Shown here: positions 3,426 to 59,317 of the stretch, one piece after another | Layout: every line of letters begins with the position of its first letter | How positions within the stretch are numbered: position 1 is the stretch's first letter | Origin: a virus | Strand: one strand, 5' to 3' | IMG/VR virus record: IMGVR_UViG_3300027969_000039 | Coordinates: 1-64,000 of that record | DNA: 64,000 nucleotides | Made by a program: the position numbers and the translations under genes | Notes under the pieces: model-generated | Told to the model about the DNA's origin: nothing | Database searches by the model: none | The model's input: only the letters and a program-made list of their open reading frames with translations

Positions 3426-3454
3426 ATTATAGCACAGGAACCATTTAATGTCAA
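3426..3454 (-). promoter_or_regulatory. Early sigma-70 promoter for the 2232-3395 operon
   Basis: Minus strand: TTGACA at 3454-3449, 17-bp spacer, TATAAT at 3431-3426. The upstream half (TTGACATTAAATGG) is the same as in the promoter repeats at 29-32 and 57-58 kb, while the rest of the spacer differs. Confidence 0.85.
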
Positions 3455-3514: not shown

Positions 3515-5224
3515 ATGCCTAGACTATCGCTTTGGCGTCCCAATAAAACGAACGATTACAACTTTTTTGATAGAACAATATCAGAACAGTTTACCGCAGG
3601 TGCCACGGATTTATATGTACATAAGTATCTAGGTCCTACTAATCAAGGAACCTCAACTGATTATACACAACCACAGTATGATGTATTAGATCCAACTAAC
3701 ATACAAGACTTGTTATTTTTAGAAAACCGTGATAGAACATATGATCCAAATATCTATCGTTTACGCGGTCACTATAATGTGCAGAATTTAGATTTCAATT
3801 TAAGTCAATTTGGATTATTTTTAAACAATGATATCATATTCATTACTGTACATTATAATGATATGATTCAGTTGGTTGGTAGAAAACTAATGGTAGGTGA
3901 TGTAATTGAATTACCTCATTTACTTGATTATAATCCATTGAAAGAAACTATCCCAGTTGCATTGAAAAGATTTATGCAGATTACCGATGCTGAATTTGCA
4001 AGTGAAGGATTTAGCCCAACATGGTTCCCGCATCTATGGCGTATCAAATGTGAACCGCTAGTTGATAGTGAAGAATTTAGTCAGATACTAAGTGCGCCAA
4101 TTGACCAAGATACTTATCTGGGTATATGGGATAAAGAAAAACCATATCCTGCAGGTTATGTTATTACGTATGGTGATAAAAATTATAAAGCATTAATTGA
4201 TGTACCGGCTGGCACCAATCCTCCTAACGCAACATATTGGCAATTAGATACAGCAGATAATCTTAAAGATATTCTTGCTACATATAATAAGAACATTGCA
4301 ATCAATGATGCTGCATTACAAGAAGCAGAACGTCTTGTACCTAAAGCAGGATATAATAGAAAGAATTTATATATTGTACCTACATACGGTGAGTATTCAA
4401 GCAATGGTGTATTATCCATGGCAAACAATAACCCTGCTCCACCGGTTGCAGTTAATACAAACGGCGGAGATCCTAACACCACAGTAACTGGTACAGTTAT
4501 GATGATGAGTAGCCCTAAATATAAAAATTCTAGCCCTGTTATTAAAATACCAAAAGCAGCAATAAAAAGTATTTGGGATAGTACAGCGGACATGGGTTAC
4601 GAAAAATTAGATATTTTTAGTACAACACATTTAGAAACTATAACATTAGCACCTAGAAGAACTGATACTAATTCAGGACCAGTAAGTGGAGATACAATTT
4701 TAACAGTATATTCAATGGGACAAATTACCGGACCGTACGGTACTGCTGATAATACATATGCTACTGCTGATGCTAATCCAGAAGCGCCCGGATTCACTGG
4801 AACAATTAGTCAACAAATGGACTGGAGAGCAGATTGTGATCCGGCATTTCAGTTTATAGCACGTAGTAGCCCGCGTAGTTTTGGTTATAGTACAGGTTAT
4901 TTAGATGGTACCGGTGAAGCACCAAATGGATTCCCAACCGGTGCTGGAATAAGTTTCCCACAAAATCCGCAAGTAGGAGATTACTTCTTACGTATTGATT
5001 ACTTCCCGCAATTATTATATCGTTGGGACGGTAGAATATGGGTTAGAATATCTCAGAACGTTAGAACACAAACTGGCATGACTTCGGCAGACAAGTCGTT
5101 AAAATCTACGTTTGTCAACAATACTGGAGTTACAGAACTTACAGATGGTACATATATACCAGAACGTCAAGCATTATCAACTATTTTAGGATTGGCACCC
5201 GATCCACTTCCCCCACAAGTATAA
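3515..5224 (+). CDS. 14: Neck protein gp14-like, enlarged, with carbohydrate-binding-like insert
   Basis: 569 residues, about twice the length of T4 gp14 (256). Residues 1-45 (MPRLSLWRPNKTNDYNFFDR and onward) and GRKLMVGDVIELPHLLDYN around 123-140 match T4-like gp14 neck proteins of aquatic phages. Residues about 203-244 show the aromatic/glycine pattern of a CBM5/12-type module: IWD, YPAGYVITYG, NYKA, PAGTNPP, YWQL. The C-terminal half holds extra beta-rich sequence. gp15 follows after 9 bp, which supports the assignment. Confidence 0.82.
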   Translation: MPRLSLWRPNKTNDYNFFDRTISEQFTAGATDLYVHKYLGPTNQGTSTDYTQPQYDVLDPTNIQDLLFLENRDRTYDPNIYRLRGHYNVQNLDFNLSQFGLFLNNDIIFITVHYNDMIQLVGRKLMVGDVIELPHLLDYNPLKETIPVALKRFMQITDAEFASEGFSPTWFPHLWRIKCEPLVDSEEFSQILSAPIDQDTYLGIWDKEKPYPAGYVITYGDKNYKALIDVPAGTNPPNATYWQLDTADNLKDILATYNKNIAINDAALQEAERLVPKAGYNRKNLYIVPTYGEYSSNGVLSMANNNPAPPVAVNTNGGDPNTTVTGTVMMMSSPKYKNSSPVIKIPKAAIKSIWDSTADMGYEKLDIFSTTHLETITLAPRRTDTNSGPVSGDTILTVYSMGQITGPYGTADNTYATADANPEAPGFTGTISQQMDWRADCDPAFQFIARSSPRSFGYSTGYLDGTGEAPNGFPTGAGISFPQNPQVGDYFLRIDYFPQLLYRWDGRIWVRISQNVRTQTGMTSADKSLKSTFVNNTGVTELTDGTYIPERQALSTILGLAPDPLPPQV

Positions 5225-27807: not shown

Positions 27808-27832
27808 AAAAAAAGGGGAACCTAAGTTCCCC
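27808..27832 (-). terminator. Rho-independent terminator after the AAA+ ATPase gene
   Basis: Stem GGGGAAC/GTTCCCC with CTAA loop at 27815-27832, followed on the minus strand by seven T at 27814-27808. The loop and flanking ACCTAAGT are the same as in the terminator at 7031-7058. Confidence 0.9.
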
Positions 27833-27855
27833 TGAAAATCAGTAAGTAAATCTAC

Positions 27856-28887
27856 TCAAAGATTCTTCATGCAAGTTGACTTCGCAAGTTCATGCCAGTT
27901 GCCAGGGTTGATCTTTACCAAGTCAGCAATCTTCAACACCATACGCAGGCTGATCTCACGCAATTGATTGCAGTTGGCCCACATGTATTCCATGACACTT
28001 TCTTCCTGCTCTTTAGTAAAAGCATAGTCAACAAACAAGCCGGGGTCAGCATCACGATGCACCTGCTTGATACGCATCATTTTATCACGTTCGGTGTTGA
28101 TAGTCAAATCCAGAAAGTGACAACGACTTTGCAATGCATCCAAATGAGGTTGCATTTTACCTGATTTTTTAGAATCAAACGATTTGTTTGTGATGAAGAT
28201 GATAGAGCCGTGAAAGTTGAAAGTATTGGGCACTCCCTCTTCGCGTAGAATACGTGAATCTTTGTTGTAAGAGATACGCCGTGTCTTGCTAGAATCCAAT
28301 GCACCTTTCAGGATGTTGACCGCATCTTGATCGTCCCAGATATCACAGTCATCAAACACCAACACGTTTTTAGCGTCAGAATATTTGTACAGTAATACGA
28401 ACAAGCCGATAGCAGACATCGCGCCTTTGACAGTCTCAAAACGGATCTTGCGATCTGCAATATGATCAAACATGCTAGCTTTTTCCATCTGCAATGTCAC
28501 GCCGTGACTCTTGCCGACACCGGGAGGGCCTGTCACAATCATAGCACGGATATCACCGTTGATACATGCTTTTGACATCTCATCCAATACTGCAAAACGA
28601 CCTGCGATACGGTCCATCGCTTCCTTATCAGTCTCGGTAGACACTTCTGCCTTTGCCTTGAATTCTACTGTATTGCCTACCACCGTTTCTCCATTCATGA
28701 ATTGAATATCTTCAATGCTTCCGACATTGACACGGACCTGAGGTCCACCCACTGCAAACTGACCATCATTCTTAACAGTAACAAATCCACCCTTCTTACC
28801 AACTTGATAACCTTTGACTAGGGTGAACACTTCACCAGATACAGGGTTATTGCGATAAGAACCAGAGAGAATGCGAATTGTTGACAT
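27856..28887 (-). CDS. AAA+ ATPase of unknown function
   Basis: 343 residues. Residues 1-80 form a beta-rich, KOW-like N-terminal region. Walker A is TGPPGVGKSHG near 119-128, Walker B VLVFDDCDIWD, sensor 1 IIFITNKS, and a C-terminal lid. It is monocistronic, with a strong sigma-70 promoter and terminator. It could be a clamp-loader-like or remodelling ATPase; it does not look like gp44. Confidence 0.8.
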   Translation of the reverse strand: MSTIRILSGSYRNNPVSGEVFTLVKGYQVGKKGGFVTVKNDGQFAVGGPQVRVNVGSIEDIQFMNGETVVGNTVEFKAKAEVSTETDKEAMDRIAGRFAVLDEMSKACINGDIRAMIVTGPPGVGKSHGVTLQMEKASMFDHIADRKIRFETVKGAMSAIGLFVLLYKYSDAKNVLVFDDCDIWDDQDAVNILKGALDSSKTRRISYNKDSRILREEGVPNTFNFHGSIIFITNKSFDSKKSGKMQPHLDALQSRCHFLDLTINTERDKMMRIKQVHRDADPGLFVDYAFTKEQEESVMEYMWANCNQLREISLRMVLKIADLVKINPGNWHELAKSTCMKNL

Positions 28888-28920: not shown

Positions 28921-28949
28921 ATTATACACTAATGCCCATTTGTTGTCAA
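28921..28949 (-). promoter_or_regulatory. Early sigma-70 promoter for the AAA+ gene
   Basis: TTGACA at 28949-28944, 17-bp spacer, TATAAT at 28926-28921. The stop TGA of the 28946-29164 gene is inside the TTGACA box. The leader shares CTTA...CAGTTAA-TAAAGGA with the cassette promoters. Confidence 0.88.
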
Positions 28950-29164
28950 GCCTTGAGTATGTCCACGATACGCTGATGTATCAGGTCCATTTCAGCCTGC
29001 TCAACATAGAAGTCGGTCTTGGGGTCATAGTACTGACCTTGGGCAGTATCGTAGTACAGGACATGACCGGAGAAATTGAAGGGACCTTCTAGACCCTTGC
29101 GAGGACCATACTTGGTACGCATCTCATCCATTTGCGTCTTGTCTGCGATAACTTTGTAACCCAT
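28946..29164 (-). CDS. Early cassette protein, 72 aa
   Basis: Start at 29164 (MGYKVIADKTQMDEMRTKYG), with AAAGGAG upstream; a longer frame would start upstream of its own promoter. Contains NFSGHVLYYDTAQGQYYDPK, then a helical tail. Driven by the promoter at 29195-29223 and ends in the next promoter's TTGACA. Function unknown. Confidence 0.7.
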   Translation of the reverse strand: MGYKVIADKTQMDEMRTKYGPRKGLEGPFNFSGHVLYYDTAQGQYYDPKTDFYVEQAEMDLIHQRIVDILKA

Positions 29165-29194
29165 CAGAAACTCCTTTTGACTGAATAAGACTCT

Positions 29195-29223
29195 ATTATA
29201 TACCCAAAACCATTTAATGTCAA
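29195..29223 (-). promoter_or_regulatory. Early promoter repeat, copy a
   Basis: TTGACA, 17-bp spacer (TTAAATGGTTTTGGGTA), TATAAT. The stop TGA of the upstream gene (29220) lies in the TTGACA box. Confidence 0.92.
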
Positions 29224-29414
29224 CTAAAATCACAAGCCTTATAGACTGCTTCCTGTACTGCGGTATCAGTAACTTCCTCAAAACGCTCGTCCTGAGCCAA
29301 GGCCTTGAGCAATCCTCGAACAACAGACCAACTCAAGTTTTGACTGATTGCCAACTTTACTATGGATCCAACTGCATCATTACCAGCGTCTGTAAACATT
29401 GCGAAATTTGTCAT
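29220..29414 (-). CDS. Early cassette protein, 64 aa
   Basis: MTNFAMFTDAGNDAVGSIVK, then a helical region (VVRGLLKALAQDERFEEVTD). SD AAAGGA. Driven by promoter copy b; its TGA is inside TTGACA of copy a. Function unknown. Confidence 0.7.
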   Translation of the reverse strand: MTNFAMFTDAGNDAVGSIVKLAISQNLSWSVVRGLLKALAQDERFEEVTDTAVQEAVYKACDFS

Positions 29415-29448
29415 TTTCTAAGTCCTTTAATTAACTGTCTAAGTATGT

Positions 29449-29477
29449 ATTATATACCCAAAACCATTTAATGTCAA
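29449..29477 (-). promoter_or_regulatory. Early promoter repeat, copy b
   Basis: TTGACA at 29477-29472, spacer identical to copy a, TATAAT at 29454-29449. Overlaps the stop of the 29474-29662 gene. Confidence 0.92.
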
Positions 29478-29662
29478 GCCGGTAGAACAACTTCAGTTGG
29501 AATTTGAGACTCACGCCAGGCATTCATATAGGCTTCACGCTCGGCCCGAACCTTGAGGATGCTCCGACTAAAGCGGCGGTCATAGTAGGCCCACGCACCG
29601 CTATCTACCCAGGTTTGGCGGCTGCATCGGACTTTGTTTACCTTGTGTTTTCTCATTTTCAT
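29474..29662 (-). CDS. Early cassette protein, 62 aa, basic
   Basis: Very basic N-terminus (MKMRKHKVNKVRCSRQTWVD), then WAYYDRRFSRS; pI probably above 10, so nucleic-acid binding is possible. It follows the 29666 gene after 3 bp and ends in the TTGACA of copy b. Function unknown. Confidence 0.62.
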   Translation of the reverse strand: MKMRKHKVNKVRCSRQTWVDSGAWAYYDRRFSRSILKVRAEREAYMNAWRESQIPTEVVLPA

Positions 29663-29665
29663 ATA

Positions 29666-29932
29666 TTAAGCCCGGTAAGTAGAATAATTACGGATTTTGC
29701 TTTGTTTATTAGCATGGCTTTCGTTGAATTTAATCTCATAACCACGCTGACGTAGTGCATTGATCAGTACTGACAGGTCGCAGTCTTCTTCCAAGAAAGC
29801 ATTGGTACCGTTCTGGTAGCTGTAAGTACTAATCTTATCAGCGATACCAAGTGCTACCAACTTTGCTTTGGGGAAGCGGGCCCATGCATGACCCGGGTCT
29901 GCGAACACTTTGATAGAGATTTTTTTAGTCAT
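29666..29932 (-). CDS. Early cassette protein, 88 aa
   Basis: MTKKISIKVFADPGHAWARF, then KLVALGIADKISTYSYQNGT, DCDLSVLINALRQRGYEIKF. SD AAAGGAC. The FADPGHAWARFPK and SYQNG segments are found in short proteins of diverse phages and plasmids; function unknown. Second gene of the copy-c transcript. Confidence 0.72.
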   Translation of the reverse strand: MTKKISIKVFADPGHAWARFPKAKLVALGIADKISTYSYQNGTNAFLEEDCDLSVLINALRQRGYEIKFNESHANKQSKIRNYSTYRA

Positions 29933-29943
29933 TTTGAGGTCCT

Positions 29944-30198
29944 TTACAATACTTGAGAAACTGAATAGTTATTCACTTTTGTGATATTTTCAACATGCCA
30001 ATCAATTATAGACTGTTCAGTATTGAGCGGCAATTCTCTAAAGTAAAGAGTTTTGCCTAGCATTACTTTATCTTTTGCGTTTAGCTTAGTGTAGTCACTA
30101 GCAGCAATCAGCAAACAAATTTCTTCGTTGCTGTAGGGCCGCTTTTTGACAGACACTTTAAAATACAAAGTACTGATTGCATTTGCTTTGAATTTCAT
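29944..30198 (-). CDS. Early cassette protein, 84 aa
   Basis: MKFKANAISTLYFKVSVKKR, EEICLLIAASDYTKLNAKDK, REL..NTEQSIIDWHVENIT. First gene after promoter copy c, SD GAAAGG. Function unknown. Confidence 0.68.
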   Translation of the reverse strand: MKFKANAISTLYFKVSVKKRPYSNEEICLLIAASDYTKLNAKDKVMLGKTLYFRELPLNTEQSIIDWHVENITKVNNYSVSQVL

Positions 30199-30225
30199 AG
30201 AGACCTTTCAACTGAATAAGACTCT

Positions 30226-30254
30226 ATTATATACCCAAAACCATTTAATGTCAA
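30226..30254 (-). promoter_or_regulatory. Early promoter repeat, copy c
   Basis: TTGACA at 30254-30249, same 17-bp spacer, TATAAT at 30231-30226; identical leader start (AGAGTCTTATTCAGT) to copy a. Overlaps the stop of the 30251-30469 gene. Confidence 0.92.
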
Positions 30255-30469
30255 CCAAGGACCTCAGTCACAGTATAATTATACCGTGTATAACCAACGT
30301 CAGTGGATCCACCATAACCAGCAAAACTCTTATTGTTCATTGCCAACTTAGCAGTACCCTTCCGAGCCATTTTTTGTGCCTCGTTGTACCAATAAGCGCC
30401 TTCAGTTATCCGTGTATGTCCACTAGCGGTTTCACGCCGTACTACATCAAAATTAAAACTGCGTACCAT
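30251..30469 (-). CDS. Early cassette protein, 72 aa
   Basis: Start at 30469, SD GGAG, 1 bp after the stop of the 43-aa gene; a longer frame to 30550 would overlap that gene. MVRSFNFDVVRRETASGHTR, YWYNEAQKMARKGTAKLAMN, then a Gly/Tyr-rich end. Its TGA is inside the TTGACA of copy c. Function unknown. Confidence 0.65.
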   Translation of the reverse strand: MVRSFNFDVVRRETASGHTRITEGAYWYNEAQKMARKGTAKLAMNNKSFAGYGGSTDVGYTRYNYTVTEVLG

Positions 30470-30470
30470 T

Positions 30471-30602
30471 TTATTGCTCCATCGGGTCACCAAGTGTATA
30501 CTCGGTGATCCATTCAATTGTAAAATCTTCACCTCTATGTTCTGCAACATAGATGCAAAGTGCTTCCAGCGTACGGAAAATCAAATCGCCAATTCTATAC
30601 AT
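30471..30602 (-). CDS. Very small early protein, 43 aa
   Basis: Read directly: ATG at 30602 shares bases with the upstream stop (TAATG) and is preceded by GAAGGTGG; stop TAA at 30471. N-terminus MYRIGDLIFRTLEALCIYVA, then EHRGEDFTIEWITEY. Coupled on both sides, which supports it. Function unknown. Confidence 0.58.
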   Translation of the reverse strand: MYRIGDLIFRTLEALCIYVAEHRGEDFTIEWITEYTLGDPMEQ

Positions 30603-30976
30603 TATGCCACCTTCCGAAAATATTGATAGGGCAAGCCCAGATCATAGCACAGATATTCCCAGTCGCCATTAGCGTTGCTAGCGTCCATGATCCAGCGCAA
30701 TGCAGTCTCACGGTCACGCGCGCCCATGCAGATAGTGTTGGTGACATGCTGCTCAAACTTATCCACAGCTTCCTTCTCAGCAACCTTACGCTGGGCTTCC
30801 TCACGCACGATCACAGCTTCCAAACTTGCAAACTCCAGTTGGAAGTCTTGCAGCGTCCAAGTGCTGGTGTCGATACCACGAGGGCGAACACCATGTGCGT
30901 CCTTGTACATATCCCAGTAGATGCACTGGGCTTGTTCCAAGTCAGACATTTGTTCCCAAGTAGTGAATTCAGACAT
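30602..30976 (-). CDS. Early cassette protein, 124 aa
   Basis: Start at 30976 with AAAGGA upstream (30994 is an alternative). MSEFTTWEQMSDLEQAQCIY, YKDAHGVRPRGIDTSTWTLQ, a charged coiled-coil helix, and ETALRWIMDASNANGDWEYL. Proteins of this kind are common in unrelated phages of proteobacteria and have no known function. First gene after copy d. Confidence 0.75.
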   Translation of the reverse strand: MSEFTTWEQMSDLEQAQCIYWDMYKDAHGVRPRGIDTSTWTLQDFQLEFASLEAVIVREEAQRKVAEKEAVDKFEQHVTNTICMGARDRETALRWIMDASNANGDWEYLCYDLGLPYQYFRKVA

Positions 30977-31005
30977 ATTTGTTCCTTTAATCAATCTAAG
31001 CCTCT

Positions 31006-31034
31006 ATTATAGACCCAAAACCATTTAATGTCAA
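31006..31034 (-). promoter_or_regulatory. Early promoter repeat, copy d
   Basis: TTGACA at 31034-31029, 17-bp spacer differing by one base (ends GGGTC), TATAAT at 31011-31006. Overlaps the stop of the 31031-31228 gene. Confidence 0.92.
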
Positions 31035-31228
31035 CCGAAAACAAATTCCCTGACCCACTCAAAACGGGTAGTAGAAGGGACCCACTTGAAGTGTTCCCGC
31101 TTGCGGCTTATCTTCTCAAAATCCATGCAGACCATGACCCAACCCTTCTCAGGGCTGAAGCCAACTGTTTCTGCAACACGGACTACTTCGACCATGCTGC
31201 CGTCTGTCATCTTTGCTACAGTAGTCAT
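31031..31228 (-). CDS. Early cassette protein, 65 aa
   Basis: MTTVAKMTDGSMVEVVRVAE, GWVMVCMDFEKISRKREHFK: a short beta-rich fold resembling small SH3/KOW-like domains. SD GGAG nine bases upstream. Its TGA lies in the TTGACA of copy d. Function unknown. Confidence 0.68.
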   Translation of the reverse strand: MTTVAKMTDGSMVEVVRVAETVGFSPEKGWVMVCMDFEKISRKREHFKWVPSTTRFEWVREFVFG

Positions 31229-31238
31229 TTTCTACTCC

Positions 31239-31400
31239 TTACGCAAACGATCCACGCACTTCTTTAGCGCCGGGGATTTCTTCACATTCACATACCCAGT
31301 CAGAGAATGATTCGTAGTATCCCACGAAATACTCCGGACGCATTTCAGTCTTGCAGTATGGGCACACTGGCATCACAATTGGTTCTATTTTTTCAGACAT
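31239..31400 (-). CDS. Very small zinc-binding early protein, 53 aa
   Basis: Read directly: ATG at 31400, preceded by AAAGGAG; stop TAA at 31239 followed by GGAG for the next gene. CPYCKTEMRPEYFVGYYESF followed by CEC supplies four cysteines for a zinc ribbon. First gene after copy e. Function unknown. Confidence 0.7.
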   Translation of the reverse strand: MSEKIEPIVMPVCPYCKTEMRPEYFVGYYESFSDWVCECEEIPGAKEVRGSFA

Positions 31401-31430
31401 AATGTTCTCCTTTAATCAATCTAAGAGTAC

Positions 31431-31459
31431 ATTATATACCCAAAACCATTTAATGTCAA
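31431..31459 (-). promoter_or_regulatory. Early promoter repeat, copy e
   Basis: TTGACA at 31459-31454, spacer identical to copy a, TATAAT at 31436-31431. Overlaps the stop of the 48-aa gene at 31456. Confidence 0.92.
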
Positions 31460-31602
31460 GTTTGGGTAACCTTATTTACCGCAGATTCAGCATCTTTTTT
31501 TCCTGTAGGACCGAAAAAGTGCCATGGATATCCGTGTACTACGGCTACCCACCCGGGGGTTTTCCTGCCGTAGTACACGCTTGCTTTTACCAAAAAAGCC
31601 AT
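31456..31602 (-). CDS. Very small early protein, 48 aa, start codon supplied by a promoter-repeat half
   Basis: Read directly: the ATG at 31602 is the ATG inside TTGACATTAAATGG, a half copy of the promoter repeat with no -10 box. MAFLVKASVYYGRKTPGWVA, GYPWHFFGPTGKKDAESAVN: a plausible small domain with the pattern of short phage proteins. AAGGAT lies upstream. Its stop is inside the TTGACA of copy e. Function unknown. Confidence 0.65.
   Translation of the reverse strand: MAFLVKASVYYGRKTPGWVAVVHGYPWHFFGPTGKKDAESAVNKVTQT
31533..31579. repeat. 12-bp inverted repeat inside the 48-aa gene
   Basis: CGTGTACTACGG at 31533-31544 and its reverse complement at 31568-31579, 23 bp apart. On the minus strand it is in the coding sequence; it may form a hairpin in the mRNA or be a protein-binding site. 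Confidence 0.55.
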
Positions 31603-31608
31603 TTAATG

Positions 31609-31884
31609 TCAATCCTTTTTCATAACATATTCAAACAGGATCCACTTGGCACGATTGAGACATTGACGGGCATCTTCGGCCCGCATGAAGTCAACTTCAC
31701 CGTACTCGGTGCTGACCATTTCTTGGGCGTCACTCATCAGGCTAGCAGCCATCATAGCAGGACCGGAGAATTTGAAAGTGAAACTAGATTCCACAGACTC
31801 ACGCATACCTGCTTCGGTCACGCCATACATGCGGACTTCACGCTTTTGTTTCTCGGTCAGTAGATCATACACGGTTGCAGTCAT
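31609..31884 (-). CDS. Early cassette protein, 91 aa
   Basis: MTATVYDLLTEKQKREVRMY, SSFTFKFSGPAMMAASLMSD, AQEMVSTEYGEVDFMRAEDA, CLNRAKWILFEYVMKKD; similar short proteins occur in diverse phages without known function. SD AAAGGAG, promoter copy f. Its TGA lies in a TTGACA that has no matching -10 box. Confidence 0.72.
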   Translation of the reverse strand: MTATVYDLLTEKQKREVRMYGVTEAGMRESVESSFTFKFSGPAMMAASLMSDAQEMVSTEYGEVDFMRAEDARQCLNRAKWILFEYVMKKD

Positions 31885-31917
31885 AAAAAGCTCCTTTAGT
31901 TAACTGTCTATAAGAGC

Positions 31918-31946
31918 ATTATATACCCAAAACCATTTAATGTCAA
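31918..31946 (-). promoter_or_regulatory. Early promoter repeat, copy f
   Basis: TTGACA at 31946-31941, spacer identical to copy a, TATAAT at 31923-31918. Overlaps the stop of the 31943-32818 gene. Confidence 0.92.
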
Positions 31947-32818
31947 GTTTTGGTAAAGTCTATTTCCCAGTTTTTTAGATGAAAATAACTAATTCCGTCC
32001 CGTTCCATATGCTTATAAAGCCCTTCTAGGGGAACAGAATCTTGCTCAAAAAAGTGTTCCCAAAGATGATTCAATTTGTTGTCAAGTGGAATTTCAATTT
32101 TGCAAAGTTTGTTGTCATCATCTTTCAACCAGTATTCTGAAAATTTATTTGTTTTATGTTTAACAACAAACTTTTTAATAGGCTTTAAAGTTTTTGTACC
32201 TGACCAGGCTGTAGTGTGTACGGGGAATTCAAACCTTGTATTCAATTCTCTAACCATTTCATCAAATTCAATATCATATTCATAGAATTCAGGTAGACGA
32301 TAAATTATCGGCATCAATTCTTCTCTGACTACTTTACTATCACCGTGGATAAATGTACTTAAATCTTTTCTAAATTTAGTTAACCTTTGTTCACGCAAGG
32401 TCAACACCACGAGTTTCTTGCTGTAATAATCACGGATGACATTAGCCTTATCTCTATCTTCCTGAATCATTTCTCTGAACAAGATACTATCAGTAAGTTT
32501 AGTCGGTCTATCATTGGGATTAGCTAAAATATCAATTTTGTGACTGAGCAGTGTTCGCAATCTATGCCAAGTAACACTCAATGCTAATACATCTTCTGTA
32601 GTCTCATACACTTCATATTTTTTTACATACGAACTATCTTGATACAAGTCATCCCAAGATGTAGTACCATTCAATCCTGCAAGAGTATGAATATTGAGTG
32701 GTGAGGGGTTTTGTGTAGTAGCCCCGATGCTACCTTTAGTGATAGCATTACCATATATTGCAAGTTGTTTCTGTACTGCAAGTTGTTTCTGTAGTATGTT
32801 TATGCTTGAATTAGCCAA
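31943..32818 (-). CDS. Unknown conserved-looking early protein, 291 aa
   Basis: TTG start at 32818 with weak SD (GGA). Gln/Leu-rich N-terminus (QKQLAVQKQLAIYGN), charged helical middle (LREQRLTKFRKDLSTFIHGD), then HLWEHFFEQDSVPLEGLYKH and LKNWEIDFTKT. No motif or membrane segment. Same orientation as and next to uvsY, driven by its own early promoter. Confidence 0.68.
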   Translation of the reverse strand: MANSSINILQKQLAVQKQLAIYGNAITKGSIGATTQNPSPLNIHTLAGLNGTTSWDDLYQDSSYVKKYEVYETTEDVLALSVTWHRLRTLLSHKIDILANPNDRPTKLTDSILFREMIQEDRDKANVIRDYYSKKLVVLTLREQRLTKFRKDLSTFIHGDSKVVREELMPIIYRLPEFYEYDIEFDEMVRELNTRFEFPVHTTAWSGTKTLKPIKKFVVKHKTNKFSEYWLKDDDNKLCKIEIPLDNKLNHLWEHFFEQDSVPLEGLYKHMERDGISYFHLKNWEIDFTKT

Positions 32819-33417: not shown

Positions 33418-33660
33418 TTAATCCCATTCGTCTAAGTCATCTTCTTCAAAATCTTCATCTTCCTCTGGAAAATGCTCGTCTGCATAACCCTTCAATGCTT
33501 TAGTGATATCTTTGTCCTTGAAGGCATCTTTGATATCTTCAATCTCATAATTGTTATCAATTAAAAAATTAACAAGAGTATCTGCCGCATCATCACGCTC
33601 ACTTAAATCAATATGTTCACGCAATGCATCCCAAACTTCAGCGATTATATCTAAACTCAT
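33418..33660 (-). CDS. Small acidic protein between UvsX and UvsY, 80 aa
   Basis: Helical N-terminal two thirds (WDALREHIDLSERDDAADTL) and a strongly acidic tail (HFPEEDEDFEEDDLDEWD). The ATG overlaps the uvsX stop (ATGA) and the stop abuts the uvsY ATG. The acidic tail resembles ssDNA mimics found on recombination proteins; this is inference. Confidence 0.72.
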   Translation of the reverse strand: MSLDIIAEVWDALREHIDLSERDDAADTLVNFLIDNNYEIEDIKDAFKDKDITKALKGYADEHFPEEDEDFEEDDLDEWD

Positions 33661-34724
33661 TCTGTAACTTCCTCCTTAGATGTTACATTACTTATCACAC
33701 TTTTAGTTTTTCCTGTATATTCAAGCATTACTTTATCTAGTATGCCGTCTTTGTTAGCTTCCCAACCTTTGCGAAACGCTTTGAGAATCTCGCCATCTTC
33801 GGTAGTGTAAACTAAACTGTTGCCTTCTTTCTTCAAAGCACCGGACTTCTCAAGCATATCAGTTAAGCCACTGTATGGACTCATGCCTGTCTCGTATGGA
33901 ATCTTGACTTGGATGCTCTCAAAAGGTTTCGCATAGCGAGTTTTCATAATCTTACAAGCAGCACGGATACCATTCACTTCAGCAACCTTGTTACCATCCT
34001 CATCCTCTTTAAGTTTGAGTTTTTTCATAGCAACAACAATTGAACTTGCGTAAACAAAACCTTGACCACCACTGATTTTATCATCTGGATCAAACATATC
34101 TTGACTTGCGTATGTGTGATTAGTAGCAACTAATCCTACATTGTGACTACCAAACATATTGACACAGTTACGAACAAGTGCTGTTAGTGCTTTGGGCTTG
34201 CGACCCATGTCACCTTTCATATCACCTGCTTCAAACTGATTAACGTCAGTTGGAGTCAATAGCATACCAAGACTGTCAATGACAAATAATACTTTTGGTT
34301 TGTCATCTTCTGACATTGCTTTATATGACTTCATAAATTCTGATATAGTTTTACCTACATCATCAATCATAGCCATGTTGAGTTTAAGCAATTTAGTTTC
34401 GCTTGTATCTACACCTAATGCGTGTAGCCATTTTTCATCTAAGGCATTTTCGCTGTCAATTAAGACAACATAGATTCCTTGTTGTTGTGCGTGTCTGACG
34501 AGGTTTCCGGAGCAGATGAAACTTTTTCCTGATCCAGACTCTCCGGCAAAGACAGTAACTTTACCAAGAGGTACACCTTTGTTAAAATCACCGCTAATGA
34601 GATAATTGAGTCCATAATTTCCTGTAGAGATCCAATCGGTTGGATCATTGTATCCTATGCTAAGTCCCTCAATACTTTTTGTAATCTCTCTACGGAACTT
34701 GCTTACATCAAATGGTTTTGCCAT
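33657..34724 (-). CDS. uvsX: UvsX recombinase (RecA family)
   Basis: 355 residues; T4 UvsX is 391. Walker A GESGSGKS at 61-68, LFVIDSLGML Walker B region, and SGGQGFVYASSIVVAMKK. Catalyses strand exchange with gp32 and UvsY, whose genes lie on either side. Translationally coupled to the acidic gene downstream. Confidence 0.94.
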   Translation of the reverse strand: MAKPFDVSKFRREITKSIEGLSIGYNDPTDWISTGNYGLNYLISGDFNKGVPLGKVTVFAGESGSGKSFICSGNLVRHAQQQGIYVVLIDSENALDEKWLHALGVDTSETKLLKLNMAMIDDVGKTISEFMKSYKAMSEDDKPKVLFVIDSLGMLLTPTDVNQFEAGDMKGDMGRKPKALTALVRNCVNMFGSHNVGLVATNHTYASQDMFDPDDKISGGQGFVYASSIVVAMKKLKLKEDEDGNKVAEVNGIRAACKIMKTRYAKPFESIQVKIPYETGMSPYSGLTDMLEKSGALKKEGNSLVYTTEDGEILKAFRKGWEANKDGILDKVMLEYTGKTKSVISNVTSKEEVTE

Positions 34725-35024: not shown

Positions 35025-36026
35025 TTAAGCAGCCTTTTGGCGACTACGAATCATCGCCAAAATATCTTGTGCTTTGTCACTTGATGTATTTGCTGCTGGA
35101 ACAACTACTGGAGCACTAGTGAAAGATGCTTCTGCTGCCGCAACATCATCTTCCCATGCGGGAGTATTAGTTGCTACTGGTGCAGTACGAACTGGCAATG
35201 CTGATTCAGTTACTGAACCTGCTGGAGCATCTAAGCCCCATGGGCGAAAGTAGTTACCCCAACGTTCGTTGTCGTAAGGTTGACCATCTACTGATGCCTC
35301 AAACATTTCTTTCATAATGCGTAGTTCAGCTTCACCTGGCTTCTTAGGCAAGAAGTCACTAAGATTAAACAATCCATGTGCTTCAATTGCTGCTTGTTCA
35401 GCCTCAGTCAATGCTGTTTCTCTACGTGCCCAGTTACTTGTACTGTAATCTGCATATCCACCCTTACTAGACTTCTTAATATTGAAGTCAAGACCGCGAA
35501 TATAGTCAGTTGGCAATTCCATGATTTCAGGATCAAGTAATCCACTCTTAACGATTGGGATGATTTGCGGGCTGATAACGAATCTACGAATTGGATTCGC
35601 AGGAGTCTTGTCATCACCCAATGGGTTTTGACGCACAAAGCCTTGAAAAATGTAACTACGCTTTTTCCAATACTTGTTAGCCATTTCTTTCAATGTCTCA
35701 TCTTTGTACCAAGGACGAACCTCAGCCAAGATAGGGCATGTAGAACCATCGTTATACATTTCTACGCATGGAACTTGTACAACTAATTGTTTTGCTCCAC
35801 TGTCACCTTTAACTCCATTGAATGGAAGTTTGATGATTTGTTTTTCTACCCAGAAAAATTCGTTCTTGGAATCACCATCGGGCAAGAAACGAATACTAGC
35901 AGTAGTGCCTTCGTCCATGTTCCAGTGGGGGTAGATAGAATTATCTGATTGGGTTGTAGAACCCTTGTTGTTTGACTTATTGTCTTGCGCTGCGATACGT
36001 GCGCGGATATCTGCTAATGATGCCAT
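35025..36026 (-). CDS. 32: Single-stranded DNA-binding protein gp32-like
   Basis: 333 residues, near T4 gp32 (301). N-terminal basic region, core with HWNMDEGTTASIRFLPDGDS, FFWVEKQIIKLPFNGVKGDS, CPILAEVRPWY and a long acidic/Ala-Pro C-terminal tail that in T4 recruits partner proteins. It coats ssDNA in replication and recombination. Both an early and a late promoter precede it, as expected for a protein needed throughout infection. Confidence 0.93.
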   Translation of the reverse strand: MASLADIRARIAAQDNKSNNKGSTTQSDNSIYPHWNMDEGTTASIRFLPDGDSKNEFFWVEKQIIKLPFNGVKGDSGAKQLVVQVPCVEMYNDGSTCPILAEVRPWYKDETLKEMANKYWKKRSYIFQGFVRQNPLGDDKTPANPIRRFVISPQIIPIVKSGLLDPEIMELPTDYIRGLDFNIKKSSKGGYADYSTSNWARRETALTEAEQAAIEAHGLFNLSDFLPKKPGEAELRIMKEMFEASVDGQPYDNERWGNYFRPWGLDAPAGSVTESALPVRTAPVATNTPAWEDDVAAAEASFTSAPVVVPAANTSSDKAQDILAMIRSRQKAA

Positions 36027-55593: not shown

Positions 55594-56700
55594 TTAGTTA
55601 CCTGCGTCTACAATGTACTTGCCGTACTTCTTGTGGAAGTCATCAAAGTGTTTTAGTTGACTAGGCTCAATCGGCAACTTGTAAGTCTTAAGCGCAATCT
55701 TAGCACCCATCACAACCAATTCAGTTTCAAAGTTCTTCATCATGTAAGACAAGAAATTGTCAGACATTTCATGGAACTTCTTCATAGTTACCTTTTGATG
55801 TTCCAATGCATCACGCAATTCATAGCACAATGAAATTGTTAGTGAATACATTGCAGAGATTTCCTTAACATTCAAGTCAGTAACTTTACCTGACAAGATA
55901 TCGCTCGGCTCGGGCAACTTGCCAGAAATCTTGCGGTGTGCAGAAAACTTAACAGCAAGCCCTTCACCGACACTACCTGCAATCAGATTGAACAGTGTAT
56001 CAGTATCAGTGTCTGCCTCGTCATCCAACAAGTCAGACACAAAGCACCAGCTACGTGGGGTAGCAAATGCACGGCTTGAAGATTTGCTATTGAAATCGTA
56101 CAAGTCCTGTTTTGCAAAACTCAAGTAACCAACCACGTCCTTATGAATGCCTTTGTTGACTGCCCATGTCTGCCATGAAGTAAAGTCAGGGCGCATTTCC
56201 AAGTGCAAGAAACGATTAGCAAGGGGCATCGGCATACGATAAGTAACACCTTTGTCACTATCACGATTACCTGCTGCCACGATAACAACATTGTCAGGCA
56301 ACTTGTACTTACCAACACGGCGATTCAAAATTAGTTGATAGCCAGCAGCCTGTACAGCAGGCATTGCACTATTCATTTCATCTAAGAAAAGAACAATGAT
56401 AGGATATTGTGATGCGAGTTCCTCGTCAGGCAAGTCGATTGGAGCAGCCCAATCCATCTTATTGAGGTCCTTGTTGAAGTATGGGATACCGCGAATGTCA
56501 GTGGGTTCCATTTGAGCCATACGCAAGTCAATCATATGACCACCAAGTTCGGCAGTAATGTCTGCTACAACTTCGGATTTACCGATACCGGGAGGGCCCC
56601 AGAGAAACAAGGGACGCTTTGCTTTGAATGCTTTCAGAATAGCTTTGCGGGCTTGTACTGATGTTACTGTGAGATTGTCAGAGACTTGAGGTGATGCCAT
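55594..56700 (-). CDS. MoxR-type AAA+ ATPase
   Basis: 368 residues. Walker A WGPPGIGKSEV at 34-44, Walker B IIVLFLDEMNSA, sensor 1 VVIVAAGNRDSD, arginine-finger region MPLANRF. MoxR ATPases cooperate with VWA proteins, and the VWA partner is the next gene. Strong early promoter and its own terminator. Confidence 0.88.
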   Translation of the reverse strand: MASPQVSDNLTVTSVQARKAILKAFKAKRPLFLWGPPGIGKSEVVADITAELGGHMIDLRMAQMEPTDIRGIPYFNKDLNKMDWAAPIDLPDEELASQYPIIVLFLDEMNSAMPAVQAAGYQLILNRRVGKYKLPDNVVIVAAGNRDSDKGVTYRMPMPLANRFLHLEMRPDFTSWQTWAVNKGIHKDVVGYLSFAKQDLYDFNSKSSSRAFATPRSWCFVSDLLDDEADTDTDTLFNLIAGSVGEGLAVKFSAHRKISGKLPEPSDILSGKVTDLNVKEISAMYSLTISLCYELRDALEHQKVTMKKFHEMSDNFLSYMMKNFETELVVMGAKIALKTYKLPIEPSQLKHFDDFHKKYGKYIVDAGN

Positions 56701-56743: not shown

Positions 56744-56772
56744 ATTATATACGAAAACTGATTTGTTGTCAA
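56744..56772 (-). promoter_or_regulatory. Early sigma-70 promoter for the MoxR gene
   Basis: TTGACA at 56772-56767, 17-bp spacer, TATAAT at 56749-56744. The spacer (ACAAATCAG...) differs from the cassette repeats and starts like the one at 28921-28949. Confidence 0.88.
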
Positions 56773-56798: not shown

Positions 56799-57218
56799 TT
56801 ATTCCTCAAACGCGCGGCGCAGAATCAACTCTTGGCGACTGAAGGCTTCAATCTCCCAGGGTTGGTCCAAGTAAGGTGTTTTCTTGCTGTACTTTTTACC
56901 TGCCCATGTATGACCATGCTTACCTTGTTTCAATGTACCTTTTGCAAACTGTTTCACATGGACCAATTCATGCGCTAGGGTGAGGCCAATTTGATACAGA
57001 CTACGATGGGGTTTGATGACTACCAGATATGCACCAGTGTACTGTGATAGGTCGAGTGTCAAGCCTGCATTGTCACCTTCGCATTCATCATATACACGGA
57101 TAAGCAATGCTTTGCGGCAACGCTCAAGACCAAGCTGGGTAATCATTGAAGGAAGTAGTGCCTCAACAAATTTTTTATTACGGCGACTACCTTCAACTTT
57201 GATTTCCATCATAATCAT
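56799..57218 (-). CDS. SprT-like zinc metallopeptidase
   Basis: 139 residues; internal ATGs at 57212 and 57209 are possible starts. IGLTLAHELVHVKQFAKGTL supplies HExxH with a following Gln. KHGHTWAGKKYSK and PYLDQPWEIEAFSRQ follow, with a Glu that could be the third ligand. Such phage proteins resemble the SprT/DNA-protein crosslink protease class but are short. A late box adjoins the start. Confidence 0.75.
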   Translation of the reverse strand: MIMMEIKVEGSRRNKKFVEALLPSMITQLGLERCRKALLIRVYDECEGDNAGLTLDLSQYTGAYLVVIKPHRSLYQIGLTLAHELVHVKQFAKGTLKQGKHGHTWAGKKYSKKTPYLDQPWEIEAFSRQELILRRAFEE

Positions 57219-57474: not shown

Positions 57475-57753
57475 TTAAGAGGACCAAAAAGTTTCGCTAG
57501 CAGGGGAACAGCACAGGGGAGTGTTAACATCTTCCTGATATTCGATACCGCTCATGAGGTTCTTGCGAGTTACCATGTTAGGCTTGTAATGCTGAGTGTT
57601 TACGATACTCAGTTCACCGGCAGACCAACCTGACTTGTTGCACAGACGGGTGCGAGTAGCACGGGCTGCCGCAAAAGTTTTGTATGCACGGGTACGATTA
57701 GAACCGTCAGTAACGATAAGACCAGTACCACGGGCGATAACATAATAAGACAT
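57475..57753 (-). CDS. Early cassette protein, 92 aa
   Basis: MSYYVIARGTGLIVTDGSNR, TRAYKTFAAARATRTRLCNK, then GELSIVNTQHYKPNMVTRKN. Similar proteins occur in diverse phages; function unknown. Promoter copy g, SD AAAGGA. Confidence 0.7.
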   Translation of the reverse strand: MSYYVIARGTGLIVTDGSNRTRAYKTFAAARATRTRLCNKSGWSAGELSIVNTQHYKPNMVTRKNLMSGIEYQEDVNTPLCCSPASETFWSS

Positions 57754-57787: not shown

Positions 57788-57816
57788 ATTATATACCCAA
57801 AACCATTTAATGTCAA
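57788..57816 (-). promoter_or_regulatory. Early promoter repeat, copy g
   Basis: TTGACA at 57816-57811, spacer identical to copy a, TATAAT at 57793-57788. It lies 5 bp after the stop of the upstream gene, which is TAA rather than an embedded TGA. Confidence 0.92.
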
Positions 57817-58081: not shown

Positions 58082-58110
58082 ATTATATACCCAAAACCAT
58101 TTAATGTCAA
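58082..58110 (-). promoter_or_regulatory. Early promoter repeat, copy h
   Basis: TTGACA at 58110-58105, spacer identical to copy a, TATAAT at 58087-58082. The stop of the 28-aa gene lies in its TTGACA box. Confidence 0.92.
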
Positions 58111-58193
58111 CCGAAATATTGAGTGTGTACGATTACCAAAATGGCTATATATGCTCCGACCACGATCCCAACTAGCATTCCAAGAAAAAACAT
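58107..58193 (-). CDS. 28-residue predicted membrane peptide
   Basis: Read directly: ATG at 58193, SD GGAGTAGGAG, stop TGA at 58107 inside the next promoter's TTGACA. It is almost all one hydrophobic helix (MFFLGMLVGIVVGAYIAILV) with a short polar end. The SD context after the upstream stop (GCGTAAGGAGTAG) is repeated ahead of the 31228 start. Function unknown. Confidence 0.6.
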   Translation of the reverse strand: MFFLGMLVGIVVGAYIAILVIVHTQYFG

Positions 58194-58203
58194 CTCCTAC
58201 TCC

Positions 58204-58461
58204 TTACGCAAATTCGTAGAATTTAACAGTAGGATCCAACTTTTGTAGTTCTTTTGCAGCCTGTGACAATGCACGATGCTTGGCCTGAACCTGACTACGG
58301 GGCAGTTCACCGTCACAGGTCAAGTTCTCAGGGCTGAGGTCGCTGTCCAGACAAGCAGCAACTACCTGACGACCTTTAGCAGTCTGTATCTCATACTGAG
58401 GACCTTTGAACAATTTGTTCCATTTGTTCTTTTGATCAATGTATTTTTGCAATGCTGACAT
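58204..58461 (-). CDS. Early cassette protein, 85 aa
   Basis: Charged, helical (MSALQKYIDQKNKWNKLFKG; SQVQAKHRALSQAAKELQKL). Promoter copy i; followed by the 28-aa membrane peptide on the same transcript. Function unknown. Confidence 0.7.
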   Translation of the reverse strand: MSALQKYIDQKNKWNKLFKGPQYEIQTAKGRQVVAACLDSDLSPENLTCDGELPRSQVQAKHRALSQAAKELQKLDPTVKFYEFA

Positions 58462-58494: not shown

Positions 58495-58523
58495 ATTATA
58501 GACCCAAAACCATTTAATGTCAA
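58495..58523 (-). promoter_or_regulatory. Early promoter repeat, copy i
   Basis: TTGACA at 58523-58518, spacer as in copy d (ends GGGTC), TATAAT at 58500-58495. Confidence 0.92.
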
Positions 58524-58525
58524 CC

Positions 58526-59317
58526 TTACGGGGCTAGCCCTTCCCTAGTTTTTGCACGTTTTACATTCGCATAAAGTACAACTTGAGTTGGAACCGGTGC
58601 TAAATATCTCTTTACCCAAGACCTGTAAACACCATATTTAAAATATATCCCATTGCCTTCAGTTGTTTTTCCTTTGAAACTATATTTCAAAATTCCATTT
58701 GCATAGACTTCAAAAAAGCCATCGTCCAAATTAGACCATTTTGCATGGACTTCAATTTTGTTCCAATTTCCAAGTAACTCCTTATCAGTTAGTATGGTTA
58801 CATATTCTTGTGTTGCACATCTATGGTGTCTATCTATAGTTAGCCCACCTCGCAATGCTCCCCATCCTGCACTATTTTGAAACATGAATGATGAGCAAGT
58901 GGGACTGTCAATAGCCCCATCAATATTATAAAATTGTCCTAAGGTGACATTGACGGGCCACACATTGATATGGTCTTTGGGTACAAAAATAGACCATCCA
59001 TACCAGTATTCAGAGTTTGAGTAATTATTTCTATCTGTTGATATCTCAGAACGTTCCCTACTTCCAACCCTAGATCCAGTTTGACCTTCAATAGAACAAT
59101 CTCCCCCTGAACATTCTCCGCTTCTGACTTCAAATCTTTCAACCATTTTCAATGGTGCAGAGCCCGTTGGATCAGATACTATTTGATATCCGTGCGGTGT
59201 TGTACTATTTGATCTAGTGAACTCCTTAAGGTTTCCATGATCAAGTGAATTAGCGGAATTAGTAGCACAGCCACCAATCAATAATATTAAAATAATTGAT
59301 ATAAAAAGTTTTTTCAT
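58526..59317 (-). CDS. Lipoprotein with polysaccharide-lyase-like domain
   Basis: 263 residues. Signal peptide and lipobox LIGGC (Cys17). The mature part has the jelly-roll pattern of polysaccharide lyases (heparinase I/alginate-lyase-like, PF14099 type): RSEIS, YWYGWSIFVPKDH, WPVNVTLGQFYN, RGGLTIDRHHRC, NWNKIEVHAKWSNLDDGFFE. It has its own early promoter, unusual for a virion enzyme, and is likely placed in the host envelope early in infection. Confidence 0.68.
   Translation of the reverse strand: MKKLFISIILILLIGGCATNSANSLDHGNLKEFTRSNSTTPHGYQIVSDPTGSAPLKMVERFEVRSGECSGGDCSIEGQTGSRVGSRERSEISTDRNNYSNSEYWYGWSIFVPKDHINVWPVNVTLGQFYNIDGAIDSPTCSSFMFQNSAGWGALRGGLTIDRHHRCATQEYVTILTDKELLGNWNKIEVHAKWSNLDDGFFEVYANGILKYSFKGKTTEGNGIYFKYGVYRSWVKRYLAPVPTQVVLYANVKRAKTREGLAP

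Follow-up and report, generated by a model that had tools for sequence, protein, structure and literature searches.

The promoters and small genes described here lie in a 64,000-nucleotide stretch (the window), which comprises positions 1 to 64,000 of the 303,057-bp IMG/VR virus record IMGVR_UViG_3300027969_000039. A promoter repeat, TTGACATTAAATGGTTTTGGGTATATAAT, occurs there on the minus strand in seven exact copies and two one-base C variants (GGGTC), and these are the nine near-identical promoters that an initial annotation had placed at 29.2 to 31.9 and 57.8 to 58.5 kb. Minus-strand open reading frames (ORFs) end at 28946, 29220, 29474, 30251, 31031, 31456, 31943, and 58107, and in every case the TGA occupies positions 2 to 4 of a TTGACA box, so the ORF ends bear out all eight fusions of stop codon and -35 box claimed by that annotation (seven repeat copies and a related promoter at 28921). 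The observation was slightly understated; a fused promoter fossil at 31584 to 31612 had been missed. The promoter elements of the window are as follows.

31918 to 31946, minus strand: promoter repeat, exact 12/12 match; TTGACA holds the stop of ORF 31943 to 32818
31584 to 31612, minus strand: promoter fossil TTGACATTAAATGGCTTTTTTGG; TTGACATTAAATGG retained, -10 box lost
31431 to 31459, minus strand: promoter repeat; TTGACA holds the stop of ORF 31456 to 31602
31006 to 31034, minus strand: promoter repeat, C variant GGGTC; TTGACA holds the stop of ORF 31031 to 31228
30226 to 30254, minus strand: promoter repeat; TTGACA holds the stop of ORF 30251 to 30469
29449 to 29477, minus strand: promoter repeat; TTGACA holds the stop of ORF 29474 to 29662
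29195 to 29223, minus strand: promoter repeat; TTGACA holds the stop of ORF 29220 to 29414
28921 to 28949, minus strand: related promoter TTGACAACAAATGGGCATTAGTGTATAAT ahead of the conserved gene 27856 to 28887; holds the stop of ORF 28946 to 29164
58495 to 58523, minus strand: promoter repeat, C variant; unfused, preceding TAA 2 bp upstream
58082 to 58110, minus strand: promoter repeat; TTGACA holds the stop of the 28-amino-acid (aa) ORF 58107 to 58193
57788 to 57816, minus strand: promoter repeat; unfused, preceding TAA about 5 bp upstream
56744 to 56772, minus strand: weaker promoter relative TTGACAACAAATCAGTTTTCGTATATAAT ahead of the ATPase gene 55594 to 56700; unfused
3426 to 3454, minus strand: promoter in which the first half of the conserved spacer is present; unfused, divergent from the gene at 3515

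Thus, seven of the nine repeat copies are fused, as are the related promoter and the fossil, and the two unfused copies (57788 and 58495) follow a TAA situated 2 to 5 bp upstream of TTGACA. The weakest fusion is that at 58107, where the ORF has only 28 aa, though its ribosome-binding site is good. The fossil contains both the stop (TGA) of ORF 31609 to 31884 and the ATG start of ORF 31456 to 31602, and the same arrangement is kept in four related loci (L033, L160, L200, and L246). The start codon here is an ATG of the former spacer, such that stop and start fall within one 14-bp piece.

Over the entire record there are 11 copies of the repeat, the two outside the window being at 141146 and 156440. 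All 23 perfect matches to TTGACA-N17-TATAAT are on the minus strand, with a spacer common to most of them; the plus strand of the record has none, and a reversed control pattern likewise gave none. The promoter islands beyond the window span G000:C1 140763 to 141511 and 156440 to 156778 (L311 and L312), and, going by their ORF lists, a fused stop is confined to the copy at 156440.

Between the core genes at 28.9 and 31.9 kb, the promoters delimit a run of small genes, island 1. Cassette proteins gave almost no matches in Pfam and PHROG searches.

31943 to 32818, minus strand: conserved 291-aa ORF, family 2, upstream border of island 1; 24 relatives, no Pfam or PHROG match
31609 to 31884, minus strand: cassette gene, family 9, 91 aa
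31456 to 31602, minus strand: cassette gene, family 108, 48 aa; missing in L225 and L226
31239 to 31400, minus strand: cassette gene, family 170, 53 aa
31031 to 31228, minus strand: cassette gene, family 62, 65 aa
30602 to 30976, minus strand: cassette gene, family 14, 124 aa; phrog_21968, unknown function
30471 to 30602, minus strand: cassette gene, family 87, 43 aa; promoterless, behind family 14
30251 to 30469, minus strand: cassette gene, family 135, 72 aa
29944 to 30198, minus strand: cassette gene, family 41, 84 aa
29666 to 29932, minus strand: cassette gene, family 19, 88 aa; ends in TAA in the window
29474 to 29662, minus strand: promoterless 62-aa ORF after family 19; closed by the TGA of the next promoter
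29220 to 29414, minus strand: cassette gene, family 61, 64 aa
28946 to 29164, minus strand: cassette gene, family 1, 72 aa; phrog_13298, 492 relatives in viral contigs
27856 to 28887, minus strand: core gene, downstream border of island 1; phrog_1250
27814 to 27833, minus strand: intrinsic-terminator-like hairpin past the last gene of the run

After removal of redundancy, the loci compared with the window numbered 129, with 2,347 genes, 310 promoter junctions, and 1,448 promoterless junctions; gene calls outside the window were made on the collected loci. Across the 310 promoter junctions, the leader has a consensus of about AGANTCTTANACAGTTAANNAAAGGA, in agreement with the shared CTTA...GTTAA-AAAGGA described by the initial annotation, and the ATG lies a median of 32 bases past the -10 box.

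Of 435 distinct strong promoters, 396 follow a called gene, which is fused at the TGA of TTGACA in 204 cases and has a stop codon (mostly TAA) beginning 4 to 8 bases upstream in a further 96. Fused stops occur at 49% (168 of 342) of the promoters of the repeat family and at 20% (20 of 99) of the remaining sigma70-like promoters at these loci (P = 1.6e-7, Fisher exact test), and they are not a product of chance. The identity of the stop codon changes with the neighboring gene. In families found with both kinds of neighbor, all 77 fused ends are TGA, as follows from the definition of fusion, whereas ends preceding a promoterless gene are TAA in 44 cases, TGA in 8, and TAG in 2 (P = 2e-27 versus fused ends), with the promoter fossil accounting for 5 of those 8 TGA ends. 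Family 1, for example, ends in Ile-Leu-Lys-Ala-TGA ahead of a promoter and in Ile-Leu-Lys-Ala-TAA ahead of a promoterless gene, and family 19, which ends in TAA in the window, has a fused TGA in 12 of its 12 promoter junctions elsewhere. That ends are always TGA if fused and mostly TAA if the next gene is promoterless indicates that the junction supplies the stop codon. Where two promoter junctions share the upstream gene but lead into different genes, the stop lies equally far from the -35 box in 166 of 207 pairs (29% expected); the stop position thus goes with the upstream gene, irrespective of the gene that comes next. Fusion is common without being required, in that many cassettes with a TAA 4 to 8 bases before TTGACA shuffle too.

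The overlap could also be a by-product of tight packing, unconnected with shuffling: any TTGACA box includes a TGA, and the small genes of phages overlap their signals. Consistent with mere compaction are the 20% of other sigma70-like promoters at the same loci that are fused, the approximately one-third of unconstrained frames that would reach this TGA, and the shuffling of unfused cassettes with an upstream TAA. Fusion is nevertheless 2.4 times commoner in the repeat family and stable per gene family through changes of neighbor, and packing accounts for the overlap but not for the mosaic joins reported below. We regard this explanation as a serious possibility, though on balance an improbable one.

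The genes between the repeats differ greatly among relatives. Two core blocks (families 7-6-4-3-5-2 and 8-11-10-13-20) flank a variable island that, in order of families and promoters (P), extends from "2 P 1 P 8" (L272) to "2 P 9 P 14 P 41 P 19 P 1-33 P 32 P 8" (L269) and reads "2 P 9-108 P 170-62 P 14-87-135 P 41-19 (62-aa ORF) P 61 P 1 p 8" in the window. Genes of replication, themselves conserved, border the variable islands; in many relatives the island 1 site has the block encoding single-strand DNA binding protein (SSB) and UvsX on one side and the phrog_1250/helicase block on the other. Islands 2, 3, and 4 repeat the pattern; 14 cassette families occur in at least two of the four islands, and family 12 occurs in all. 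There are 21 distinct whole-cassette differences (gains or losses) with promoters on both sides. When upstream proteins are 85 to 95% identical, the next gene differs at 51% of promoter junctions versus 29% of other junctions (family-averaged, P = 0.007), and at 53% versus 28% when only small genes are considered (P = 0.018). The initial annotation had named a fixed gene order, with repeats diverging like other intergenic DNA, as the outcome that would count against cassette exchange; its idea survived, in that gene content between repeats varies strongly while promoter identity between unrelated junctions remains at 0.82 to 1.0.

The positions at which homology is lost locate the joins. In 207 pairs with the same upstream gene and different downstream genes, sequences are homologous to the -35 box and random (0.28) past the start codon; conversely, in 758 pairs with the same downstream gene and different upstream genes, they are random (0.27 to 0.29) to base -7 and homologous after the promoter. 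Of 2,376 distinct ends of homology, 648 fall in promoter intervals, where 77.9 are expected (8.3-fold), compared with a 3.5-fold excess for promoterless junctions. A break is evident in 94% of promoter junctions with homologous coverage and 57% of promoterless ones, and by gene family the break fractions are 0.83 and 0.51 (P = 3e-10). Gain, loss, and reordering of cassettes with breakpoints inside the repeats, which the initial annotation had proposed to look for, are thus present, and its suggestion that a shared boundary sequence swaps whole cassettes with reading frames intact is supported, with the qualifications given below.

Variable bases within the promoter allow finer placement. Spacer positions 20 and 22 track the upstream gene, whereas the downstream gene is tracked by leader positions 30, 32, and 33, a contrast that is uncorrected for genome relatedness but in which the two sets of pairs serve as mutual controls, and which places many crossovers around the -10 box. 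In L246, one promoter joins families 108 and 14, where in the window two promoters enclose a pair of cassette genes; this single promoter combines the A at spacer position 22 of the window's left copy with the window's right leader (29 of 29 bases). Three-way comparisons with L182/L030, L205/L019, and L202/L190 are similar. In L225 and L226, which are without family 108, homology stops precisely at the opening T of TTGACA (31459), and the pair of alignments that meet at the L225 join has a 23-bp overlap. At island 2, the homology of L119, L151, and L179 to the window stops at 57816. Homogenization of repeats within a genome (concerted evolution) is not clear, spacer identity being 0.828 within and 0.816 between genomes (P = 0.05).

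Such joins might alternatively arise by illegitimate joining anywhere, with survival only at gene borders that have a working promoter, in which case the repeats would simply mark viable borders. The 3.5-fold excess of breakpoints at promoterless junctions and the many promoterless genes that come and go fit this explanation. Promoter junctions, however, break more than promoterless gaps of similar size (20 to 120 bp; break fraction by family, 0.83 versus 0.53, P = 1.5e-6), the single promoter that remains is often a left/right hybrid or identical to both, and the 23-bp repeat overlap at the L225 join is what exchange between repeats predicts; random joining is therefore unlikely.

We judge equally unlikely that the spacer and leader are recognized by a sequence-specific protein (a phage regulator or a site-specific recombinase) with shuffling as a consequence. 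The 17-bp spacer is conserved at 0.82 between unrelated cassettes, far beyond ordinary sigma70 needs, and within-genome homogenization does not clearly explain this (0.828 versus 0.816). No recombinase or regulator was linked to the repeat, although the recombinase check covered part of the record's genes. Moreover, the crossover markers are spread over the promoter with no fixed cut, the switch sometimes preceding position 22, and the leaders have no stable fold. As regards the marks of integron-like, site-specific cassette systems (a recombinase gene close by and a palindromic site with one fixed crossover point), what was observed is crossovers at varying places in the promoter and leaders that do not fold.

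The explanation that we favor, and consider quite probable, is that tandem early-gene cassettes are built on one universal connector and exchanged between promoter repeats. The connector would consist of a strong sigma70-type promoter (TTGACA-TTAAATGGTTTTGGGTA-TATAAT) and a short leader with a ribosome-binding site, spanning from in or near the preceding stop codon to the start codon of whichever gene follows. Host RNA polymerase would presumably transcribe each small gene right after infection, with transcripts reading through the terminator-free cassette borders. Because 29 to 60 bp are nearly identical at every border, exchange between connectors, within one genome or between different genomes, could move, insert, or delete whole cassettes. 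After such an exchange, the downstream gene would retain its leader and ribosome-binding site, the promoter would be complete, and the upstream frame would be closed by the -35 box itself if fused or otherwise by a TAA just before it. The probable agents of exchange, which would then proceed by homologous recombination, are a UvsX and an SSB encoded beside island 1; a DNA helicase is also encoded in the window.

33657 to 34724, minus strand: UvsX/RecA-like recombinase adjoining island 1; phrog_97 (2e-68) and Pfam RecA (1.5e-15)
35025 to 36026, minus strand: single-strand DNA binding protein; phrog_1192 (3.9e-56)

A stronger proposal, which we advance only tentatively and rate as rather improbable, is that the fused stop and -35 box form an evolved connector of stop, promoter, and ribosome-binding site, selected for frame-safe and instantly expressed exchange across the population, with a conserved spacer that a phage protein itself recognizes.

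Several points weigh against cassette exchange between promoter repeats as a full account. Promoterless junctions also break often, and promoterless genes are gained and lost in the islands: 38 distinct cases involve a promoterless gene inserted before a promoter, as opposed to the 21 two-promoter cases. The excess of promoterless insertions and the frequent breaks at promoterless junctions indicate that connectors are not the sole route. When upstream proteins are 95 to 100% identical, family-level turnover for all genes is not significantly higher at promoters (P = 0.16; P = 0.04 for small genes only), and the near-identical records L221 and L222 have the same island 1 cassettes as the window, indicating that exchange is not very frequent. 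The loci were gathered partly by the promoter itself, which enriches for plastic regions, though the controls come from the same loci; shared ancestry was controlled only by dropping redundant loci and averaging by family; and genes were called with a simple home-made caller.

The second island of the window contains three cassette genes.

57475 to 57753, minus strand: island 2 cassette, family 29, 92 aa
57821 to 58048, minus strand: island 2 cassette, family 65, 75 aa; in three different islands among relatives
58204 to 58461, minus strand: island 2 cassette, family 30, 85 aa

Immediately before the promoter at 58495, positions 58526 to 59317 (minus strand) encode a 263-aa protein with a polysaccharide lyase domain (PF14099; Pfam, 1.7e-22) that, from its N terminus, is probably secreted; several relatives have a different gene there. 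At 56799 to 57218 (minus strand), a 139-aa product has weak, subthreshold similarity to metallopeptidase-like domains. The largest family of small proteins in the related loci, family 0 (85 members of approximately 60 to 90 aa), occurs several times per contig, chiefly at promoterless junctions, and may represent a second, promoter-independent class of movable genes.

The promoter module is present in more than 100 metagenomic phage contigs (14-mer and full 29-mer scans of a viral collection), with 2 to 12 repeat copies in each long related contig. There is no significant match to the repeat among phage isolates, and the whole genome of the Pseudomonas jumbo phage Paride (Arenbergviridae, Wroclawvirus), which with the Pseudomonas jumbo phage PA5oct is among the nearest isolates, has no copies. 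Host-promoter mimicry or a prophage source was rejected, the repeat having a single match in a set of about 85,000 genomes of bacteria and archaea. With respect to the repeat sequence, the initial annotation was thus right to call the arrangement specific to this lineage. The terminase is 50% identical to that of Sinorhizobium phage Phosso and 47 to 48% identical to those of Paride and PA5oct, all 2,599 phage records matched by TerL being below 60% identity; for the core gene at 27856 to 28887, the nearest isolates are again Paride and PA5oct, at 38%. With homologues of the T4-like terminase (TerL), UvsX (phrog_97), and SSB (phrog_1192), the carriers are, by gene content, an uncultured group of large T4-like phages.

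These loci provide an unusually clear natural record of the trade in small early genes among large phages, in which joins are located to a few bases within a 29-bp promoter and stop codons shift with the neighbor. Promoter-mediated shuffling of modules in T4-like phages thereby becomes testable at base resolution in environmental populations, and any ORF behind this promoter is a candidate interchangeable early cassette. In other phages, such early genes often act in host takeover or counter-defense.

Short conserved repeats also precede many small genes of different families in cluster K mycobacteriophages, where the SAS/ESAS elements, comprising a 13-bp GGGATAGGAGCCC near the start codon, have a proposed role in translation (PMC3203893). 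Unlike the promoter repeat, SAS elements have neither -35 and -10 boxes nor a stop codon, and the 13-bp sequence was not found in the leader consensus of the 310 junctions. The haloarchaeal virus HGTV-1 has a PeSL-like TATA-box-like motif with an inverted repeat, for which shuffling has been suggested (PMC3950731). In both cases a large tailed virus has a genome region where a conserved promoter-like motif stands before the majority of the ORFs; unlike the motif of the archaeal virus, the present one is a bacterial sigma70 promoter without an inverted repeat.

The closest parallel is the one drawn by the initial annotation. PeSL elements, reportedly described by Arbiol in 2010 and Comeau in 2014, are said to be repeated early promoters with stem-loops that shuffle modules of T4-type phages. 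These elements are also treated elsewhere (PMC4503421). The present repeats differ from them in having no stem-loop terminator at the junctions, in a -35 box that doubles as the preceding stop codon in about half of the copies, and in a conserved 17-bp spacer. Terminator-like structures occur in 2 of 310 leaders (4.2 in shuffled sequences) and 30 full junctions (25.6 in shuffles), and sites upstream only are in weak excess (24 versus 10.6); the junctions at 28.9 to 32 kb have none, the single coding-strand hit lying within an ORF. Lacking the stem-loop, the repeats are not classed as PeSLs. No fused stop was found among promoter-like sites in an 18.9-kb stretch of T4, in a small test with a crude promoter search, and no precedent for the stop/-35 fusion or the conserved spacer was found in the searchable literature, which did not include the two original PeSL papers. 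The two systems nonetheless have several features in common. Here, too, copies of a strong sigma70-like promoter, with activity predicted from its sequence, border small, nonessential genes in plastic regions between core blocks; modules have been acquired, lost, and swapped, with breaks inside the repeats; and genes for a T4-like UvsX and a phage SSB are present. The working principle, an exchange of promoter-bounded modules between repeat copies, is the same.

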